From positions 1,054,001 through 1,118,000 of the forward strand of contig NW_002476512.1 in the NCBI RefSeq assembly GCF_000189635.1: DNA of 64,000 nucleotides, in the 5' to 3' direction. The stretch is from Tetrahymena thermophila SB210. Its lineage: Eukaryota > Ciliophora > Oligohymenophorea > Hymenostomatida > Tetrahymenidae. Both the position numbers and the translations under genes were made by a program. Below, piece by piece: positions 2,793-63,700 of this stretch (its first letter is position 1; every line of letters starts with the position of its first letter). The notes beneath the pieces were generated by a model. The model had not been told where the DNA came from and did not search any database. It saw only the letters and a program-made list of their open reading frames with translations.

Positions 2793-3081
2793 ATGATATT
2801 TATAAATATGTATATATATATTAATTTAAACACATAATATATAGATATACTCACAAAATAACATACAATTATATGACTCATCAATATTATTTAAATTTAG
2901 CTTAATTTGTCTTGTACAAGAGACTCTTTTATAAATATAAAAATAATAATAAAATATATCTATGTATCTATCTATATCTTTGGTGAAAAAAACTTTTAAA
3001 ATGTTATATAATAAAACATATGATATTCAATTATTCATGCATTTAATATTTATTTATCCTTTTTTTACCATTCGTTTATCA
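2793..3081. other. AT-rich spacer
   Basis: The sequence is dominated by TATA and AATA runs, with no supported gene. It borders the 3' end of the minus-strand LRR gene at 3082. Confidence 0.5.
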
Positions 3082-5200
3082 TCAGAAATTTTTTTCAAAA
3101 ATAACTAATCTTTTTGATTTAAGACACTTGTTTATTACTTTGAATTCTTATGATTCATTTATCTAGTTTAATCTTTAAAAATAAATTTGTGTAAATTTTA
3201 AATAAATATTAAAAAAATAAACTTTTAAAATAAAAATTATTTCTTAAATAAATAAATAAATAAAGTAATATTTGTGGAATAAAAAAGATAAAAAAAAAAA
3301 TAAATCAAATAAATAAATTCAAGGAGCTTTTTTGTTTTATATTCATTTTATAGTTAAAAATATCACAAACCAAAACAAATAAACTGTTTTTACTCAAGGT
3401 TAAGTGTCAAATTTGAGAGATTAATGCAATTTGCTAAATTAGAACCTAAGTCTGATGCCCCCATTGCCTAAATTTAATTTCCACTTTTTAAATATTGATG
3501 AAAAAATATATTATTAAATAGTTAATTAAAAGGAAAAAATGAAATAATAAGATTAATTAATTAATAATAAAATCAAAAGTTAAAAATAAAATGATGAGTG
3601 AGTTAAATTAACAAAGAAAGAAGAAAAAAAAGCAAACAAGCACAAAAATAAAAAATAAAAAAAAGAGCTTATTGTTTTAAATTTAGTTTTTATAATCAAA
3701 AATATATCAAACCAAAACAAATAAACTATTTTTACCAAAGATCAAGTGTCAAATTTGAAAGATTAATACATTTTGCTAAAGCAGAACCTAAGCATAATGC
3801 ACCCATTTCACCAATTTCGTTGTAACTTTTTAAATATCGAAGAAAAAATATATAATTAAATAATTAATTAAAAGGAAAAAAAAAAAATATGAAACAATAC
3901 GATTAATTAATAATAAAAGCAAAAGTTAAAAATAAAATGATTAGTGAGTTAAATTAACAAAAAAATAAGAAAAAAAAGTAAATAAGCACAATAAAAAGTA
4001 AAAGAAAAAAGAGCTTTATTATTTTAAATTAGTTTTTATAGTTAAAAATATCACAATCCAAAACTAATAAATTGTTTTTACTCAAGATTAAGTGCCAAAT
4101 TTGAGAGATTAATGCCTTTTGCTAAAGCAGAGCCTAAGCTTGATGCACCCATTGTACCAATTTAATTTTAACTTTTTAATTATTGAAGAAAAAATATTTT
4201 ATTAAATAGTTAATTAAAAGGAATAAATAAAAAAAATATAAATGAAATAATAAGATTAATTAATTAATATTAAACGCAAAAGTTGAAAATAAAATGATGA
4301 GTGAGTTAAATTAACAAAGAAAGAAGAAAAAAAAGCAAGTAAGCACAATAAAAGAAAAAAGAGCTTTATTGTTTTTAATTAATTTTTATAATTAAAAATT
4401 AAAAATATCACAATTCAAAACAAATAAACTGTTTTTACCTAAGATTAAGTGTCAAATTTGAGAGACTAATGCATTTTACTAAAGCAGAACCTAAGTCTTA
4501 TGCACCCATTCCACCAATTTAATTACAACTTTTTAAATATTGAAGAAAAAATATAATTAAATAGTTAATTAAAAGTAAAAAATGAAGAAAAATATGAAAT
4601 AATAAGATCAATTAATTTTGAAAGCAAAAATTGAAAATAAAATGATGAGTGAGTTAAATTAACAAAGAAAGAAGAAAAAAAGCAAGCAAGCACAATAAAA
4701 AGAAAAAGAAAAAAGAGCTTTATTGTTTTAAATTAGTTTTTTATAAATAAAAATATCACAATCCAAAACAAGTAAACTGTTTTACAAAAGGTCAAGTGTC
4801 AAATTTGAGAGATTAATGCATTTTGCTAAAGCAGAACCTAAGCCTGACGTACCTTCATCACCAATTTAATTTTAACTTTTTAAATATTTATTTAAATATT
4901 GAAGAAAAATATATACCGTAGATTCTCGTTAATTAAGGACCAATTTAATTAAGGACTTTTTTGAGTGGTATTTAAAAAAGGACTAAATTTTTACAAAAAT
5001 TTTGATTTGAAAAAGTCCTTAATTAACGAGAAACTACGGTAATTAAATAGTTTTAAATTAATTTTTATAATTAAAAATATCACAATCCAAAACAGATAAA
5101 ATGTTTTTACCTAAGATAAAGTGTCAAATTTTATAGATTAATGCATTTTGCTAAACCAGAACCTAAATCTGATGCACTTTCATTACCAATTTATTTATAA
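3082..5200 (-). CDS. leucine-rich repeat protein built from 90-nt single-LRR exons (5' end unresolved)
   Basis: On the minus strand, exons at 5111-5200, 4786-4875, 4439-4528, 4082-4171, 3736-3825 and 3394-3483 are each exactly 90 nt. Each is preceded by an AG and followed by GTAAAA, with identical phase. Each encodes one 30-residue repeat of the pattern NQIGDEGxSxLGSALAKCI followed by NLSNLTLxL, a ribonuclease-inhibitor-type LRR. The terminal exon 3082-3172 (91 nt) continues in phase, completing an (E)LNQI LRR start. It then leaves the repeat as INKCLKSKRLVIFEKNF and a TGA. Introns are 221-267 nt and are homologous to one another, so exon and intron were duplicated as a unit. TAA/TAG are used as Gln. 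LRRs of this kind form protein-binding solenoids; the partner is unknown. No start exon was found upstream of 5200, and an eroded seventh unit lies near 5399-5490. The gene may be truncated or a pseudogene. Confidence 0.6.
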
Positions 5201-5500
5201 CTTTTTAAATATTGAAGAAAAAATATAATTAAATTTTTAATTAAAAGGAAAAAATGAAAACAAAATATCAAATAATAAGATTAATTAATTAATAATAAAA
5301 GCAAAAGTTAAAAATAAAATAATGAGCTAAATTAATAAAAAATGAAAAAAAATCAAACAAAATAAAAAATAAATAAAAATAAATCAAATAAATTAAAAGG
5401 GCTATAATGTTTTAAATTAATTTTTATAATTAAAAATATTAGAATCAAAAACACATAAACTGTTTTTATCAAGTGTAAATTTTAATAGAAAAAATATAAA
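3324..5500. repeat. ~345-bp tandem repeat array (exon+intron units)
   Basis: Units begin with a GAGCTTTATTG-like sequence at about 3324, 3665, 4011, 4361 and 4715. A further unit near 5045 is altered at its start by an inserted element, and a degraded one starts at 5399. Successive spacing is 341, 346, 350 and 354 bp. The best-conserved core corresponds to the 90-nt LRR exon read on the minus strand. The intron portion is also clearly related between units, though it carries small indels in A-rich and AATT-rich tracts. Confidence 0.9.
4914..5041. mobile_element. 128-bp MITE-like element with terminal inverted repeats
   Basis: The left end taccgtagattctcgttaat and the right end attaacgagaaactacggta are inverted complements over 26+ bp with one mismatch. 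The element begins and ends with TA inside A/T flanks, consistent with TA target-site duplication. The interior is AT-rich and non-coding. The CTCGTTAAT core of the terminus resembles pogo/Tigger-type termini, which is established for that Tc1/mariner branch, but assignment to it here is an inference. It sits within an intron of the LRR exon array, in the unit between exons 5111-5200 and 4786-4875. It appears to have replaced part of the usual intron sequence. Confidence 0.7.
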
Positions 5501-6548
5501 ATGATTAAAAAAAATGAATGATAAATAATTAAAAATAGAAATTTAAATTAAGTTAAAATTGTTAAAAAATATTTTTTAAATAAAAATAAATCAATGAATA
5601 AATAATGATGATAATTTCTATTAGAAAAATTATTTTTACAAATAAATTGAAATTAATATTTTTAAAAAATATTAATAATATTTATAAATTAAATATACCT
5701 CAGATCAATATAGAGAACTTAATGAGATAAAAGTGAAGAGTTTAAAAACTTTTTTTATTAATATATATAAATTTAAAGGGTTTAATAAAAAAAAATAATT
5801 ACTTCTTCTAATTTTCTGAAATATTTAATCCATTATATCATTTAATTTTTTTCCAATAATATTGAATAGCAAATAATTTATGGAATTTAATTAATTATCA
5901 ATAGATAAAAAGAACAAATAAAATATAATAATTAATTATCAAATATATATTTATAAATTTGCTTTTAAGAAGATATGTCACAGAAAAATTAATTTAACAT
6001 TTATTATTTAGTCTTTGTATTTAAAATATATATTTAAAAATATAATAGGAATTAGAGAAGCAGTTACTTATATTTGAAATCATTCTAGTAATTAATTAAT
6101 GTTCTTAAATTTTATAAAAATAATCTTAATAAGTAGATTTTTACGTTTTAGCTCAGTAATTAATTATAGGAATATTTATAATATTTCTAATTCTTCCCTA
6201 ATCCCATAAAATAATTTAATTAAATTTTATGAATTTAAAACAATAAGAATTTTTTTGCATAAAAAATTAAAAATTCTCTACTTGGTTTTAAAGCAAATGT
6301 ATAAAATATATTTATGTAGATAAATTTTTTTAAAAAGAAAAAAAGCATCTCAACTGCCATTTAATCATTTTCTGTATAAATAAAGTAAGTAGGTAGATAA
6401 GTAATTAAGTAAATTAGTAAATAATTTATAGTAATTTCATTTATATGTAGGTGTACTTTTTTAATGTAGTAATAGTGAGTGTATTGTATAATTTAATATT
6501 TTCTTTAATATATGCTTTTTATTTTATCCAGTTTACTATTTAAGGAAT
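5201..6548. other. AT-rich spacer with eroded repeat unit
   Basis: The first ~300 bp contain the intron remainder and a decayed seventh unit of the LRR exon array. In that unit (5399-5490) the donor GT is lost and only a few codons of the LRR remain. Beyond 5500 there is only A/T-rich DNA. A start exon for the LRR gene should be sought here, but none could be supported. Confidence 0.5.
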
Positions 6549-16084: not shown

Positions 16085-18641
16085 TTTTAGTTTATAATTT
16101 ATATTTTTTGTTATTATTAATTGTTTATCATAGATCGATAATAAATATTTGGTTGGTTTTAAATCAGAATATAAACACTAAGCAGGATGCTACTTCTGCA
16201 AGTAAACATCAATCAAGAATCTCGAAGTTTAATTAGATAAGCGATTGTGCTATTTGAAATTAATTCAGATAACAACTTTTCTAATATTTATTAACCTCAA
16301 AACAAAAACCCATAATTTACTGATAAATTATGATCACTGCCACCTGAATTTTATTTTGTAAATAAATAAGATTGTTTAAATTTAGAAGCATTATTTAATC
16401 TATTAATAAATCAAAAAGAGAGACAGACAGACAAATAAATAGATAAAAAAATAGATAGGTAATGTATGAAGATATATTTAGGTGTTAATTAATTGGAAAG
16501 ATTAATATTCAAAATTCTTTGAGCTTTAAAATTTCATTTAGAGACTTAAAAATATTAAGCTGAAAAAATTAATAAATTGAAGATTTTTGAGGTTGGGAAT
16601 AAAAGGTAAGCAAGCAAGCATAGTAAATTATATAAAGTTTTGAATTTCCACCAGATTTAGTTTAATTTAAAAATTCAAGAAAATGAATTTTGAAAGCTAT
16701 TTAATAAATTAATTGTTATAATAATATTAATTTTAGTAAATGCGTACCTTAATTAAAAGAATAATCTAAGCTCCACTAATTTTTCCTTGAAAATTCTTCT
16801 TTAAACATAAATTTATGTAATTCAACTAAATGTTTGTTATATATTAAGCAAATATACATTCTTATTTTCATATAATGCCGATGTGTAAGTAAGTAATAAG
16901 AAATAAATATATTGACTAAATAATTTTTTCTACTAGAAATACCAGAGGAAAATATGCCTAAATTATTTTATTAATTTACATATTGACAAAAGAATAATCG
17001 AAACGCATAACTTTCATTAAGTTTTATTACTTTTCTAAAAAAATAAATGCTTGTTTATTCATTAAGAAATGCTACTTATAGTTTAAATACACTTAAATTC
17101 ATTAAATAAATGGTGAAAGATAGTAATTCAGAAAACTATCGATTAAAATATAAAATATTAATGTAGATTTAGTCTTTTAAATGCTGTTACAAAGATGATA
17201 TCCATTATTTAAAATGTATCTTTTACAAATTTAATTAATTTTTCTTCCTCTTAAATTGAGTGGTTAATTTACTTCAAAGCTAATAACATCTATCTTTTCT
17301 TGTTTTAGTGTAAGCAATTAATGAAAAATATAATAATATTTTATCTTATTTTCTTATTTAATAATTAATTCTATTTTTAATTACGTTTAATTCAGAGAAA
17401 AAATTGTTTTATTTCATATATATTTGTAATATTTTAAAATAATGAATTAAAAACACAGCTTTACAGCTTTGAATTTTTCTTTTATGCATTTTACTTTTTT
17501 TTACATTTTATTAGACAATGTTACAGTCAAACCAGATATATCGATTAATCTTATATGTTGGCAAATTATTTATTTGAGAAAATTTTTTACTTAAATGTTA
17601 CAGTCAAACCAGATATATTCATTAATCTTTTATGTTGGCAAATTATTATGTGAGAAAATTTTTTAATAGTGTAACTTTCAAGTAATACCATACATAAAAA
17701 AAGTATTTTTATTTCACATTTAATAAAGAGTGTAAATTTTTTAGACAAATAATGGCAACTAAAAACCTATTTTAAAGTTAGGAGTAGCATAAAATGTAAT
17801 TTTCTTTAACTCTTAATTCAGGTTAAAAATTAAGAGGTTACTATAATAAGTTTTTGTTGCAAATTCGAATAAATTTAATAATCTAAAAACTTACAATTAT
17901 AATAACTTTAAAAAGTCAGTGAGATTACACTTAATTCATGAGATTATATTTTATTATTACCATTTAAATTTAATATAGATTGATCAAATTGTGGTTAAAT
18001 TTAAATCTAATTTTCACAATGAATTTTAAAATCAAGAGATAATCAATCATCAATATATTCAATATTCGAATATTCTAAAATACATTTCGAAATTATTATT
18101 TTAAGTAATAAAAACCAGTTCATGAAGATATTTATCACACTTTTAATTATCTCTATCTGTAATAAATAATAAATATAAAATTATCAAAATCTTTTATCTT
18201 GACCCTCCAAAAAAAATGTAAATTTAGCCTTAAATCGAATCTTTAAGCCCTCCAAATTTCAAAAATTTAATCAAAATTATTACCGGCCTTAATTAAACCA
18301 CATTTTCAAATTTTTAAAAACCTGCCTTAATATATGAACCTTTACCGTATATATCAATAATAATTTTTTATTTAAAACAATAAAAATGCTTTTTAAATCA
18401 ATTTTCAAAATAAGTTTAACAAATTACATTTAGTTTATATAAATTACATATTATACTTTAATAAATTAAATTTAAAGAAATGTATTGGTAGTATTTAGTT
18501 AGTTAGTAGTTAGTTAGTAATTAGTTAGTAGGATAGCTAGTTAGTCGTATTTATGGTAAGATTGGTATATTTAGTTTTATATGCTATTTATCAATTAATT
18601 TTTTGTTACTAAGATTATGATTAATCTTCTAAAAATGAAGC
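16085..18641. other. spacer between paralogues B and C
   Basis: This is gene B's upstream region followed by gene C's 3' flank. It contains GACA and AAGC microsatellites (about 16420-16440, 16608-16622) and a 76-bp tandem doublet at 17519-17666. A stretch at about 18185-18290 has no counterpart in the other two spacers. No coding frame is supported. Confidence 0.6.
17519..17666. repeat. 76-bp direct tandem doublet in spacer
   Basis: Two adjacent copies start with ATGTTACAGTCAAACCAGAT at 17519 and 17595 and end in GAGAAAATTTTTTA. The equivalent doublet in the next spacer is at 23464-23611 (period 77). Only one diverged copy is seen in the D upstream spacer, about 29572-29655. It is non-coding as far as can be seen. 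Confidence 0.85.
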
Positions 18642-22144: not shown

Positions 22145-24609
22145 TTTTAATTTATAATTTATTTTTTTTGTTATTATTAATTATTTATTATAGATCAATA
22201 ATAAATATTTGGTTGGTTTTAAATCAGAATAAAAACACTAAGCAGGATGCTACTTCTGCAAGTAAACATAAATCAAGAATCTCGAAGTTTAATTAAATTA
22301 GTGATCATACTACTTGAAATTAATTCAGATAACAACTTTTCTAATATTTATTAACCTGAAAACAAAAACCCCATAATTTACTGATAAATTATGATCACTG
22401 CCACCTGAATTATATTTTGTAAATAAATAAGATTGTTTAATTTAGAAAAATTATTGAATCTATTAACAAATCAATTAGATAGACAGACAGACAATTAAAT
22501 AGATAAACAAATAGATAAGTATGCATGAATGTATGTATATGTATGTAGATATATTTAGGTGCTAATTAATTGGAAAGAAGCTATTTAAAATATTTAAAAA
22601 TTATTTTCCTATTCAAAATTTTTTGAGCTTTAAAATTTCATTTAGAGACTTAAAAATATTTAGCTGAAAAAATTAATAAATTGAAGATTTTTGAGGTTGG
22701 GAATAAAAGTTAAGCAAGCATAGTAAATTATATAAAGTTTTGAATTTCCACCAGATTTAGTTTAATTTAGAAATTCAAGAAAATGAATTTTGCAAGCTAT
22801 TTAGTAAATTAATTATTATAATAATAGTAATTTTTGTAAACGTGTACCTTAATTAAAAGAATAATCTAAACTCCACTAATTTTTCTTTGAATAGGCTTCT
22901 TTAAACATAAATTTATGTAATTCAACTAAGTGTTATATATTAAGAAAATATATTATGTTATTTTCAAAAATGCTGACGTGTAAGTAATAAATAAGAAATA
23001 AATATATTAACTAAATAGTTTTTTCTACTAGAAATACCAGAGGAAAATATATCTAAATTATTTTATTAATTTACATATTGACAAAAGAATAATGGAAATG
23101 TATAACTTTCCTTAAGTTTTATTAATTTTCTAAAAAAAATGCTTGTTTATTCATTAAGAAATGCTACTTATAGTTTAAATACACTTAAATTCATGAAATA
23201 AATGGCGAAAGTTTGTAATTCAGAAAACTATCGATTAAAATATAAAATATTAGAGTAAAACTAATCTTTTAAATTCTGTTAAAAAGAGGATATCCATTTT
23301 TAAAAATGTATCTTTTACAAATTTAATTAATTTTTCTTCTTCTTAAATTGAGTTGTTAATTTATTTCAAAACTAATAACATCTATCTTTTCTTATTTTAG
23401 TGTAAACAATTAATCGAAAATATAATATTATGCTTTTTACTTTTTTTTTCATTTTATTAGGCAATGTTACAGTCAAACCGGATATATCGATTAATCTAAT
23501 ATTAAGGCAAATTATTTATTTGAGAAAATTTTTTACTTAAATGTTACAGCCAAACCAGATATATTCATTAATCTTATATGTTGGCAAATCATTTATTTGA
23601 GAAAGTTTTTTACTAGTCTAGTCTTTCAAGTCATACCATACATAAAAAAAAGTATTTCTATTTAATATTTAATAAAGAGTGTAAATTTTTTAGAGAAATA
23701 ATGGCAACTAAAAACCTATTTTAAAGTGAGGCATAAGCATAAAATGTAATTTTCATTAACTCTTAATTCAGGTTAAAAATTAAGAGGTTACTATTATAAG
23801 ATTTTTTCGCAAATTCGAATAAATTTAATAATCTAAAAACTTATAATTATAATAACTTTAAAAAGTCAGTGAGATTACACTTAATTTATGAGATTATATT
23901 TGATTATTACCATTTAATTCAATATAGATTAATCAAACTGTGGTTAAATTTAAATCTAATTTTCGCAATGAATTTTAAAATCAAGTGTTAATCAATCATC
24001 AATATTAGATATTCGAATATTCTTAAATACATTTCGAAATTAGTATTTTAAGTAATAAAAAACAGTTCATTTAGATTTTTATCACACTTTTAATTATCTC
24101 TAGTTCTAATAATTAATAAATATAAAATTCTTGTAATCATTTTAATACTTGATTAAACACAAAATAATCATATATTATATATTATCAAATGTTACACATA
24201 TTCAAGTTCCAATAATGTTTAAAATCATATATAATATAAGCCTTAATTAAACCATATTTTCTAATTTTTAAAAACCTGCCTTAATATATGAACCTTTACA
24301 GTATATATCAATAATAATATTTTTTCTTAAAACAATAAAAATGCTTTTATTAAATCAATTAATTTTCAAAATTAGTTTAAAAAATTACATTTAGTTTTTA
24401 TAAATTACATATTATACTTTAATAAATTATATTTAAAGAAATTTATTGGTAGTATTTAGTTATTAAGTAGTAAGTTAGTGTAATTAGTTAGTAGGCTAGC
24501 TAATTAGTTGTATTTATGGTAAGACTGGTATATTTTATTTATTTTTATATGCTATTTATTAATTAATTTTTTGTTACTAGGATTATGATTAATCTTCTAA
24601 AAAAGAAAC
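22145..24609. other. spacer between paralogues C and D
   Basis: It is homologous to the B-C spacer along almost its entire length. It includes the ~77-bp doublet at 23464-23611, a GACA repeat near 22482-22492 and GTAT repeats near 22525-22550. It ends with gene D's 3' flank, which carries short TTAG tracts. No gene is supported. Confidence 0.6.
23464..23611. repeat. 77-bp direct tandem doublet in spacer
   Basis: Two copies start with ATGTTACAG at 23464 and 23541, matching the doublet at 17519 in the preceding unit. This shows the doublet predates the B/C split. The first copy has lost a few bases in its middle. Confidence 0.8.
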
Positions 24610-55077: not shown

Positions 55078-55650
55078 GTTTATTCTATTTTCCCTCAAAT
55101 TTTAAAACAAAATTTTAATATTATGTAAAGTATTTTTGAGTTTTGATTTCTATTATATACATAGATACATACATACACACCCACACATAAATATATATAT
55201 AAATATATAAATAATTTTAAGTATTCATAAAATATAATATATGCTTATTGCTTAAAAATCAATATTTTTCGTATTGTCTTATTACTATATTTCTTATTTT
55301 TAAAAAGTTAGGATCTGCTTTTAATACATACATACATACATATTTACTTTCAATAATATAAATATGAGACAAGTCAAAATTCAAAAAATAAATTAATTTA
55401 TTTAGTTTATTTGTATTTCTTTTCCAAACTTACAAAAATGAAAACAATTTGTTATTGAAGATTAATACTAAAAATTTTATTTTGCAATTAATAAAAGAAA
55501 AACTTACTGAAATTTTTATGGTTAACAAAATAATTATTTTACATTTAGAAATTTAGAAAAATATAAATTAATGAAATAAAAATAGCTTTTTACATGAAAA
55601 GTTAAGAAATTTATTATAATTTAATATTAATATTCACAAATATCGAGAAA
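55078..55650. other. AT-rich spacer with CATA microsatellites
   Basis: ATAC/CATA tetranucleotide patches occur near 55158-55190 and 55324-55342. The rest is A/T-rich. This separates the coiled-coil gene from the first tRNA gene. No gene is seen. Confidence 0.6.
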
Positions 55651-55722
55651 GGGGCTTTAGCTCAGTGGCAGAGCGGAGGACTGCAAATCCTTAGGTCGCC
55701 GGTTCAATCCTGGCAGGTCCCT
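55651..55722 (+). tRNA. tRNA-Cys (GCA)
   Basis: A 72-nt cloverleaf. Acceptor GGGGCTT pairs with AGGTCCC, D-stem GCTC/GAGC, anticodon stem GAGGA/TCCTT with loop CTGCAAA (anticodon GCA, Cys), variable loop AGGTC, T-stem GCCGG/CTGGC with TTCAATC loop. There is no encoded CCA. A T run directly downstream serves as the Pol III terminator. Its acceptor stem and D-arm differ from the three tandem copies downstream. Confidence 0.95.
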
Positions 55723-56131
55723 TTTTTATTAATTTTTATAAATTAATTTATAAATTTAAACAAAACTTATTTCTTAAAATTAAATAAAGTTTTGACATTA
55801 AATATTGATAAAGTAATATAAATACATTTTACATGGCATAAATTTTTTAAATGTTTATTAATTTCCCAAGATTAATTTAGATATAACTTAGTTTAATTAA
55901 TTTTTGTATAACCATTTTTGAATATTAAAATTTATTGAAAAGACTAAAAAAATCATAATTTTTTCTAATAATTCATTATTTTTTATTTAAAGCGAGCTTC
56001 TTTAATAAATGAGAATTAAATACTAAACTTGTTATTATAACTAATATTAATTAATCTACTTCTAATATTTTTCTTCCAAAATTTTTATTTGTTTAAAAGG
56101 GTTAATTTTATTTTTTTGTATTTGTTATATT

Positions 56132-56202
56132 GGAACCTTAGCTTAGTGGTATAGCGTAGGACTGCAAAGCCTGAGTCGCCGGTTCGATCCCGGCAGGTTC
56201 CT
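56132..56202 (+). tRNA. tRNA-Cys (GCA), structurally degenerate copy
   Basis: 71 nt. Acceptor GGAACCT/AGGTTCC is fully paired, better than its two sisters, which have GGAGCCT. But the anticodon stem TAGGA now faces GCCTG, giving an A-G mismatch next to the loop, and the variable loop has lost one G (AGTC instead of AGGTC). Anticodon GCA and the T-arm are intact. It may be a non-functional or weakly functional gene; an acceptor change plus two damaging changes suggests decay. Confidence 0.8.
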
Positions 56203-56360
56203 TTTTAATTTTAGTTAGCTAACTATGTAGAAATATTTATTTATTTTGTTTTATTTTTCATAATTTATTTCAAAATTAATAATTTATCTTTTAAAGTATA
56301 TTTTATAAAAGTTTTATTTGTTTAAAAGGGTTAATTTTATTTTTTTGTATTTGTTATATT

Positions 56361-56432
56361 GGAGCCTTAGCTTAGTGGTATAGCGTAGGACTGCAAATCC
56401 TGAGGTCGCCGGTTCGATCCCGGCAGGTTCCT
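56361..56432 (+). tRNA. tRNA-Cys (GCA)
   Basis: 72-nt cloverleaf. Acceptor GGAGCCT with AGGTTCC (one G-U), anticodon stem TAGGA/TCCTG, loop CTGCAAA giving GCA, variable loop AGGTC, T-stem GCCGG/CCGGC. Followed by T5, a Pol III terminator. Identical in sequence to the copy at 56586. Confidence 0.95.
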
Positions 56433-56585
56433 TTTTAATTTTAGTTAGCTAACTATGTAGAAATATTTATTTATTTTGTTTTTCATAATTTATTTCAAAA
56501 TTAATGATTTATCTTTTAAAGTATATTTTATAAAAGTTTTATTTGTTTAAAAGGGTTAATTTTATTTTTTTATATTTGTTATATT

Positions 56586-56657
56586 GGAGCCTTAGCTTAG
56601 TGGTATAGCGTAGGACTGCAAATCCTGAGGTCGCCGGTTCGATCCCGGCAGGTTCCT
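56586..56657 (+). tRNA. tRNA-Cys (GCA)
   Basis: Identical to the gene at 56361 over its 72 nt, with the same leader and a T-run terminator. It is the last unit of the tandem array; sequence similarity between units ends shortly after this gene. Confidence 0.95.
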
Positions 56658-60721: not shown

Positions 60722-63700
60722 ATGAGCTATTCAGCGAACCAGGTTAAAAACCCTAATGGAAAACTTACTGTTTGGATTACTAAAGCAGATATTTACAATA
60801 CATCACAATCCTATGAGGTATCTATCTATCTTTCATTTCAGTTTATTTTTTTCGTTAATTTGGAAATCTGATTTCTTTGGTTTATTATAATTAGAATATC
60901 ATAGTCAAAATTTAGATTGGTAATGATGTCAAAATTACTCCTGCTTGTCCTTACAATTAGAAAAATATTTAATGGGTCGATGGCTTTGAGGTTGTTAGAA
61001 AGGAAAATGAGGACAACTTTCTTATAACTTTGATAAACCAAAGCAAAAAGGGAGATGAAGTTTTAGGATCAGCTTCAATAGAAATAAATTAATTTTTACA
61101 AAGAGCAAGAAAGACAGATTTTTAGGCTGACCTACAACTAAATGGTAAAAATACTAGCAGCTTGCAGACAAAAATATAATTTGTAAAATTTACCGACGCA
61201 GAAAATTTGGCTTTAGAAGCTTAAAAGCAAGCTCAAAGTGGAAAAAAGGTAGATGGCTCAAAGATTTAAGAGACTGCAATCAATGAAGCAAGCAAAAAGC
61301 TTAGAGAAAATGAAATTCTAACAAATTACTCTAACAATCCATATGCTTAGAGCTATAAGTATTTGATCACAATCACAAATATTAAGGCAAATTTCAAAAG
61401 AGACACTGATTTGTTTAGCAAAATGGTGATTTTTTTTATCAATAAATTTGCATTTATTAGAATTTTTTTTGTAAATAGGATCCTTTTGTGAGAATAAAAG
61501 TAAGCGAAGATATAAACTTTAAAACTTCAATTATTAAAGGTATTATAAATTATATTAAATTAAAATTTTATGTCTAATTATTTCATCAATTAGGAGGTGG
61601 AAAAACACCAGAATGGAAAGAGTAGGTTTAGGTTTATGTGGGACTTGAAGAAGTCATCATGTTTTTGGCATTTGACTAAGAGGTTCATAAAGATTAATTA
61701 ATCGGATTTGGGTCTGTTCTTATGCAGAACTTCAAATTAGGTGAAGAGACAAAAGTTATTCCTCTGGAGTACCATAAATAGAGTGCAGGTGAATTGACTA
61801 TCACTGTGAATTGTAAACTAGTTGGCTCTTATGAAAAATCTAATAACTTGTTAGGAAAAGTTGTATTGAGAAATGTCTCTAGTGTTCTAAAAAAAGGATA
61901 ATCAAATCATTAATTAAAATTTTCTCTTGGAACAGAAAACAAGTGTACACATTTAATAACAAAAAGTGAACCTAATAATAAATATAGAGATATCATTGTC
62001 TTCCCAATTAAAGACAAAAATTTAACAAATTTAACTGTAATTTTATTTAATTCTAAAAAATTTAATTGATAAGGATAATTTTATAAAAATCTAGATAAAT
62101 TTTCAAACTGTAAGTAGTAAAAATGTTGATCTTGTTGGTAGCACTTTGTTTGATTTAAAACCTGTTATTGAAAATGAAAAATGGTATATTTAAGAAGAAA
62201 TTATAATGATAGGTAAAGATAAAAAAGAAATTGGTAAAATATATGCCGATGTGTAATATGTTGACTTGGCTGAGCATGATGACGAAAAGTTGTACAAATT
62301 ATAATAAAATTAAGGAAAAGTAACTCTTAAAAATATGAGAGGTTACTTAACAAGGGACACTGAAATGTTTGGTAAGATGGATCCATACTGCATATTAAAA
62401 TACAATGGAATCTAATTAAAAACTAGTGTCCATTAATCAGGTGGCAAAGAACCAGTTTGGAAAGATAATATTTTTGAATTACCTTAATTCACTTATTAAA
62501 AAGATAAAAAGCTCTTTTTCGAAGTTTTTGATGAAGATACATCAAAAGATGATTTAATTGGAAAAGGATATATAGATCTAACTTAGTTTATTCAAAAAAA
62601 GGGTAAGTATCTTGGCTAAAAAGTAAATATTGAGTATGAAGGCAAATAGGCAGGTTAAGTTAATTTCGATTTAGAATACGAAGAAAACTAAGAGCTCATT
62701 GCCTATATCGAAAAAAAAAAGAAGGAAAAAGAGTTAGAGGAGCTCTAGAAAAAGAAAGCAGAAGAAGAAATGAAAGCATTAAAAGCTAAGTAAGATGCAG
62801 AAAAGAAAAAAAAAGAAGATGAAGAAAAAAAGTAAAAGGAGGAAGAGGAAAAAAAGAGGAAGCTTCTTGAGGAGTAAGAGTTGAAAAAAAAGCAAGAAGA
62901 AGAAGAAAAAAAAAAGAAGCTACAGGAAGAGTAAGAGTTGAAAAAAAAATAAGAGGAAGAAGAGAAAAAAAAGAAGCTTTTGGAAGAGTAGGAGCTGAAA
63001 AAAAAACAGGAAGAAGAGTAAAAGAAGAAGAAGCTTTAAGAGGAGCAAGAACTTAAAAAAAAGTAAGAGGAAGAGGAGAAAAAGAAGAAGCTTTAAGAGG
63101 AGTAAGAGTTGAAAAAAAAATAAGAGGAAGAGGAGAAAAAAAAGAAGCTTTTGGAAGAGTAAGAGTAGAAAAAAAAGCAGGAAGAGGAGTAGAAGAAGAA
63201 ACTTTAATAGGAGCAAGAATTAAAAAAAAAGTAAGAGGAAGATGATAAAAAGAAGAAGCTTTAAGAGGAGTAGGAACTGAAAAAGAAACAAGAAGAAGAT
63301 GAAAAGAAGAAAAAACTTTTAGAGGAGCAGGAATTGAAAAAAAAGAAAGATGAAGATGAAAAATAAAAAAAGAAGCTTTAAGAGGAGTAAGAATTGAAAA
63401 AGAAGCAAGAAGAAGAGGAAAGATAAAAGAAAGAAGCTGAAGAAAAAAAGAAATAAGAAGCTTTACAGAAAGAGATGGAACTTAAAAAGTAAAATGAAGA
63501 ACTAGAAAGAGCTAGGGTTTAACAAGAAAATGAGGAGAAAAGAAAATAATAAGAGTAAGAATAGAAAAGGCTGTAAGAGAATTAAAACAAAAGCAGAGAA
63601 TAATCTCCTTAAGGTTCTTAGTATTCTTAAAATTATGCTGAATATAAAGTTGCTAAATAAAATTTGGAATAAGGCCACGGTTTTGGCATGTCAGAGTATT

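Follow-up and report, generated by a model that had tools for sequence, protein, structure and literature searches.

Predicted outward-facing hypervariable codons in the near-constant exon-intron units of a 90-bp-exon LRR gene family of Tetrahymena thermophila

A tandem array with a period of 346 bp (4.5 copies, 83% matches by TRF) occupies positions 3324-4888 of the window, a 64,000-nt stretch of the Tetrahymena thermophila genome (C60:1054001-1118000; GC content 23.4%) in which genes are read in the ciliate code. Is this array a decaying satellite or a gene built of duplicated units and, in the latter case, which parts of the unit stay alike and which diverge? An earlier note on this DNA had described a repeat of ~345 bp, a value matched by the TRF period, and had read it as a leucine-rich repeat (LRR) gene on the minus strand, each unit consisting of one exon and its intron. 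The array was re-examined at the level of the window and of the 101.0-Mb, 445-contig assembly to which the window belongs.

On the minus strand, all six of the proposed blocks are exactly 90 nt long, are preceded by AG and followed by GTAAAA, share one phase and contain no TGA, as had been claimed; the remaining two frames hold eight and five TGA, respectively. These blocks, numbered here as LRR exons 2 to 7, lie at 5111-5200 (AG/GT bounded, open and in phase 2), 4786-4875, 4439-4528, 4082-4171, 3736-3825 and 3394-3483, and the junctions predicted beforehand (3394/3172, 3736/3483 and 4082/3825) were recovered from the sequence at the same boundaries. The four introns at 4785-4529, 4438-4172, 4081-3826 and 3735-3484 (257, 267, 256 and 252 nt) share a mean identity of 89.6%, the intron having been copied along with the exon. 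While the 15 exon pairs show no gap event over 1350 aligned nt, the six pairs formed by these introns show 32 over 1483 aligned nt. As for substitutions, the exons are less alike than the four introns (80.7% vs. 89.6% identity). The last intron (3173-3393, 221 nt) leads to a terminal exon 8 at 3172-3082, which carries the C-cap LNQINESQEFKVINKCLKSKRLVIFEKNF and closes with a TGA at 3084-3082, as the earlier note had it. The LRR identity was also borne out, since PF13516 (LRR_6) matches the predicted product with E=1.1e-7, above the curated cut-off. As a whole, the reading of an LRR gene in the ciliate code, composed of exon-intron units that were duplicated, is supported, being consistent both with these sequence tests and with the main text of PMC6564038.

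The extent first given to the gene, 3082-5500, stood at its 3' end only; at the 5' end, a further exon was found at 5841-5699. This exon 1 (minus strand, 5699-5841) has a start codon and an N-cap, MIQWIKYFRKLEEVIIFFYQTLQIYIYQQKKFLNSSLLSHQVLYIDL, and ends in phase 2 before GTATAT. It is followed by intron 1 (5201-5698, 498 nt), delimited from alignments of 5' regions, the 3' half of which (~5201-5475) resembles the intron of the repeat unit without its exon, a feature common to family members. With 40 of 652 candidates scored, the 5' flank of the gene has at least 41 other genomic matches that reach 566 bits. When 33 family 5' segments were aligned, namely the window's own and those in the loci fetched for the family analysis below, they revealed a conserved coding exon with a phase-2 end before GTAT, represented in the window by 5841-5699. 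A broken or truncated 5' end had been considered on account of the exon-less stretch at ~5201-5475, where the would-be donor is AT instead of GT; it was dropped because the alignment of the 33 segments showed the arrangement to be shared among family members, with the conserved coding exon upstream. By one fixed rule, exon 1 could be read in 21 of the 33 segments, the window among them, and 18 of these 21 have the 143- or 146-nt form. In the other 12, either no open phase-2 frame (eight segments) or no anchor (four) was found, so that some relatives may be dead copies.

Concerning the 3' end, the stretch at ~2930-3260, which includes the terminal exon, has at least 38 other occurrences above 300 bits (40 of 543 candidates scored), and C-caps related to that of exon 8 are also present in the fetched loci. 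Joined together, the eight exons make 774 nt, i.e. 257 codons and a TGA, while the alternative frames contain 7 and 11 TGA. Phase 2 is kept at each of the seven predicted junctions, from that of exon 1 to that of the terminal exon. No domain besides LRR was found in the predicted product in Pfam at E up to 0.001. Over its LRR part, it resembles in sequence LRR chains of solved structure (14 distinct sequences, E up to 0.001), among them those of RanGAP, of dynein regulatory complex subunit 5 and of NOD2 (chain 5irm). The array thus has the look of an intact eight-exon gene, with an N-cap exon, six exons of 30 LRR residues each and a C-cap exon, which is presumably spliced and expressed.

Two putative insertions were observed in or near this gene. 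Intron 2 (4876-5110, 235 nt) is devoid of part of the unit's intron and holds a MITE-like element of 124 bp (4916-5039), whose inverted ends, once compared, differ at one base over 25 and are flanked on both sides by TA (4914-4915 and 5040-5041). The stretch 4913-5043 is represented by 49 matches genome-wide, its own two counted, in an assembly that is probably that of the somatic genome. Downstream of the gene, positions 2810-2928 make up ~119 bp that are extra relative to homologous 3' flanks matching on both sides, as exemplified by C60:1384312-1384583 and 1384573-1384863, where the two matches overlap by 11 bases. With similar short sequences (ttataaata) at each end, this segment has the appearance of an inserted sequence or of an eliminated segment that was retained.

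Other repeated features were noticed elsewhere in the window. About six tandem minus-strand paralogues (6549-40442, ciliate-code frames) combine an LRR-like part with a common C-terminal region bearing motifs such as QSQFLALANKMKLTDGKL and WICDGW. Two separate tandem pairs of a nearly identical 77-bp unit (AATGTTACAG...), at 17517-17665 and 23463-23614, are located one each in two gaps between neighbouring gene copies. Four tRNA-Cys(GCA) genes lie at 55650-56657, the last three on a ~225-bp tandem repeat, and a degenerate 57/171-bp repeat rich in GAAGAA/AAAGAA (62824-63431) perhaps encodes a charged coiled-coil. A subtelomeric position was also considered but found no support, C4A2 repeats being absent from the ten contig termini inspected (five starts, five ends).

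Genes of this kind, with tandem 90-bp LRR exons, are already known in Tetrahymena. In their main text, Xiong et al. 2019 (PMC6564038) describe thousands of young LRR genes with tandem exons of exactly 90 bp and phase-2 introns, the 90-bp exon being found in 1,500 of 1,874 T. thermophila LRR genes. The T. thermophila unit is given there as about 347 bp, with an intron length peak at ~257 bp (~232 bp in T. malaccensis). Growth by unequal crossing over, possibly together with retrotransposition, is proposed in that text, unequal crossing over being argued from the variation between genes, which have from 1 to 51 90-bp exons in T. thermophila. The window array shares with these group III genes a repeat visible at the nucleotide level, tandem exons of exactly 90 bp, phase-2 introns and a variable copy number, while its 346-bp unit and the 256-nt median intron length found here (see below) fit T. 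thermophila and not T. malaccensis. Judged by these features, the predicted window gene belongs to the young, group III type family of 90-bp-exon LRR genes, and such arrays probably lengthen by unequal crossing over.

The array repeat was found genome-wide, with at least 152 matches (150 of 5995 candidates scored). A 29-residue LRR profile was run over the window and 45 fetched loci, picked for their dense matches rather than at random, and gave 312 matches. AG and GT exactly 90 nt apart bound 284 of them, whereas at control offsets from -9 to +9 only 0 to 11 of the 312 matched, save for AG at +3 (28) and GT at +9 (231), the latter being a second GT within the conserved intron start. A TGA in the LRR frame was met in one of the 284 exons, as compared to 237 and 240 exons when either of the other two frames is read, a count slightly biased by the profile itself, which deducts 8 bits per stop. 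The median intron length was 256 nt (215 introns).

The variation among codons was then analysed in the 283 stop-free 90-nt exons. Residue entropy is highest at codon 1 (3.73 bits), at the junction codon (3.41 bits) and at codon 28 (3.07 bits), followed by codons 7, 3, 6, 26 and 15 (2.4 to 1.6 bits), whereas the scaffold residues L22, L25, L27, L29 and N2 reach only 0.16-0.57 bits. The most variable codons sit chiefly at the exon edges, with codons 6 and 7 varying inside the exon. Except for codon 15, they all correspond to x positions of the motif LxLxLxxNxIGxxG. The x positions of the LRR strand point to the concave surface, and the hypervariable codons are therefore predicted, from the motif, to encode outward, solvent-facing residues.

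To compare the codons with their neutral surroundings, close pairs were defined as units with introns less than 3% apart (179 of 20300 unit pairs, mean 1.4%), bearing in mind that unit pairs are non-independent. In these pairs, the core codons (1, 28 and junction) differ at 47% of their first and second positions vs. 4.7% for the other codons and 1.9% for fourfold sites. When reduced to 56 disjoint close pairs, 80/168 positions differ at codon 1, 58/168 at codon 28 and 47/112 at the junction, vs. 141/3920 over the remaining exon positions, codons 3, 6, 7 and 26 being left out, and 322/13683 in the introns. The excess over both introns and fourfold sites was observed in all 22 loci having at least three pairs, and the five usable units of the window itself gave 0.45 for the core codons vs. 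0.11 for fourfold sites and 0.18 for introns. In a split-half analysis, 12 positions chosen on half of the loci differed at 50% in the close pairs of the other half, the background being 5.8% at the remaining exon positions and 3.4% in introns. In none of the 284 exons does codon 1 read TGA, where 11.8 cases are expected from base frequencies, and none of 2000 shuffles gave a count as low. Mutual information between variable blocks is weak (z from 0.2 to 7.2) and comes partly from relatedness.

These figures are partly driven by one group of 13 units, spread over four loci and differing by 0.5% in their introns, which supplies 78 of the 179 closest pairs. Without any unit of this cluster (92 pairs, 17 loci), the core codons still differ at 44%, vs. 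5.0% for other codons, 3.2% for fourfold sites and 2.1% for introns; at introns below 2% (27 pairs, 9 loci), the corresponding values are 29% for the core, 1.4% for fourfold sites and 1.0% for introns. When both flanking introns are less than 1% apart (12 pairs), 5.83 of the 19 variable positions differ on average and none of the 70 others, ten of these pairs belonging to the cluster (6.7/19) and two lying outside (1.5/19). Outside the cluster, pairs with both introns below 2% (four pairs) differ at only 1.0 of the 19. The codon excess is general; its most extreme form is confined to the 13-unit cluster. The cluster is also distinguished by the nature of its changes: all five bases are changed in 40 of the 44 pairs differing at nt 18-22, and all four in 29 of the 55 differing at nt 1-4, as compared to 0/8 and 4/17, respectively, outside. 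A codon 28 change involves one base in 44/44 cases inside and 5/13 outside. Both common forms of nt 18-22 are found alongside near-identical introns in the cluster, from which the evidence for a possible exchange of whole blocks between units mainly comes.

Regarding selection on the rest of the gene, exon 1 has a pN/pS of 0.84, calculated on 16 copies of the 146-nt form, to which the window copy does not belong. In the 90-nt exons, codons that are not hypervariable have a pN/pS of 0.9-1.0. Judging from these ratios, there is apparently little purifying selection except possibly at the variable codons. Within codons 1 and 28, the closest class of pairs gave a pS of 0.47 and a pN of 0.43; with synonymous change as high as nonsynonymous change, selection on single bases would not give the full account.

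Several explanations of the array and of its codon pattern were weighed. Were the array a decaying tandem repeat, with its open blocks left over from a dead gene, one could understand its matches across the genome (at least 152, with 150 of 5995 candidates scored), the unreadable exon 1 of some relatives, the MITE-like element within intron 2 and the near-neutral pN/pS outside the hypervariable codons. We consider this unlikely, given six blocks out of six of exactly 90 nt without a gap event vs. 32 in the introns, the presence of both caps, and eight exons that join in frame and are free of internal TGA (as opposed to 7 and 11 in the other two frames). The chance is slimmer still that the variable codons are unconstrained and have merely drifted. 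The LRR fold is generally expected to tolerate change at these positions, but drift cannot outrun the neutral rate, and the core codons do (47% vs. 1.9% at fourfold sites, 44% vs. 3.2% without the dominant cluster), a contradiction that would vanish only if introns and fourfold sites were homogenised by a process sparing the variable codons; the absence of TGA from codon 1 also speaks against drift. A regional hypermutation at exon edges, acting instead of selection, would account for the location of the most variable codons at both edges and for the abundant synonymous differences inside codons 1 and 28. It is nonetheless most improbable, because the silent third positions adjoining these codons are conserved: among the 56 disjoint pairs, only 2/56 differ at L27, 3/56 at L29 and 0/56 at N2, to be contrasted with 80/168 at codon 1 and 58/168 at codon 28. 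Moreover, codons 6 and 7 vary although they are inside the exon, and entropy is only 0-0.32 in the first six bases of the following intron and 0 in the last two of the preceding one, splice constraint contributing to these values.

A more serious competitor is old variation held by selection, with gene conversion homogenising introns and exon interiors and little new mutation at the variable codons, an idea that comes from MHC introns. In the 13-unit cluster, whole-block differences (40/44 at nt 18-22 and 29/55 at nt 1-4) and the occurrence of both common nt 18-22 forms with near-identical introns point to ready-made blocks. Outside the cluster, however, such whole-block changes are not seen at nt 18-22 (0/8) and are few at nt 1-4 (4/17), and conversion tracts would have to end only a few bases away from the variable codons, on either side; we hold this explanation to be possible but rather doubtful. 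Exon-wide conversion from a random donor is at odds with the 12 closest pairs, which differ at 5.83/19 variable positions and 0/70 others. In the 129 pairs less than 5% apart, variable and other differences are weakly correlated (Spearman 0.248, p 0.005); taken with the fact that 10 of the 12 closest pairs come from one cluster, this suggests that some exon-wide exchange may occur. An adenine-targeted, DGR-like mutation was set aside, since N2 (AAT) is conserved and the changing bases appear to be of mixed kinds. There is, finally, a very small chance of a programmed diversification in a single-celled eukaryote, by templated micro-exchange or targeted editing of the codons of the predicted binding face, several of which adjoin splice junctions. 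Their replacement, much quicker than at any other site, would take place either in the germline or as the macronucleus develops, partly in short blocks (nt 1-4 and 18-22 in the most recent cluster), with introns and scaffold kept uniform.

Diversifying selection is the likeliest cause of the codon pattern, and its combination with an intact-looking eight-exon gene of the 90-bp-exon LRR kind is, as a joint reading, highly probable. It would act on the putative binding surface of the LRR solenoid, the scaffold residues and introns staying alike while the outward codons 1, 28 and junction and, more weakly, codons 3, 6, 7 and 26 diverge. The variation would be supplied by new substitutions, to which very short exchanges between units may add, at any rate within the one cluster that has lately expanded. 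For T. thermophila, a mutation rate of 7.61e-12 per site per division and an effective size of 1.12e8 are given in the text of PMC5585995; with so low a rate and so large an effective size, very strong site-specific selection would be plausible without any new mechanism.

Hypervariable LRR residues predicted to be exposed, as known from VLR and NLR immune receptors, are thus a feature also present here. According to the text of PMC3900441, lamprey VLRs have LRR modules between caps, as does the predicted window gene, and their variable residues are mainly on the concave face, with gene-conversion-like diversification; the pattern described here is similar. Lamprey VLRs, for their part, are assembled during lymphocyte development (PMC3900441). 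In the highly variable plant NLRs discussed in PMC8226289, high-entropy residues likewise occupy the x positions of LxxLxLxx, and the x positions of the LRR strand are stated to face the concave surface. In contrast to these NLRs, the product predicted here has no NB-ARC or other signalling domain in Pfam at E up to 0.001.

The window array itself is one more member of the published family. For this family, purifying selection was deduced in the main text of PMC6564038 from Ka/Ks at the gene level, a ratio that is higher (about 0.4) in young LRR genes, whereas the present analysis concerns hypervariability at the codon level in the family exons. The words hypervariable, diversifying, positive selection, concave and solvent do not occur in that main text, and no report of hypervariable codons in Tetrahymena or ciliate LRR genes was found in the open literature searched; the observation of hypervariable, predicted outward codons amid a near-constant unit may therefore be new. 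If the codon pattern holds, these 90-bp-exon LRR genes would form a repertoire with diversified contact residues, beyond mere expansion, and what they recognise would become directly testable.
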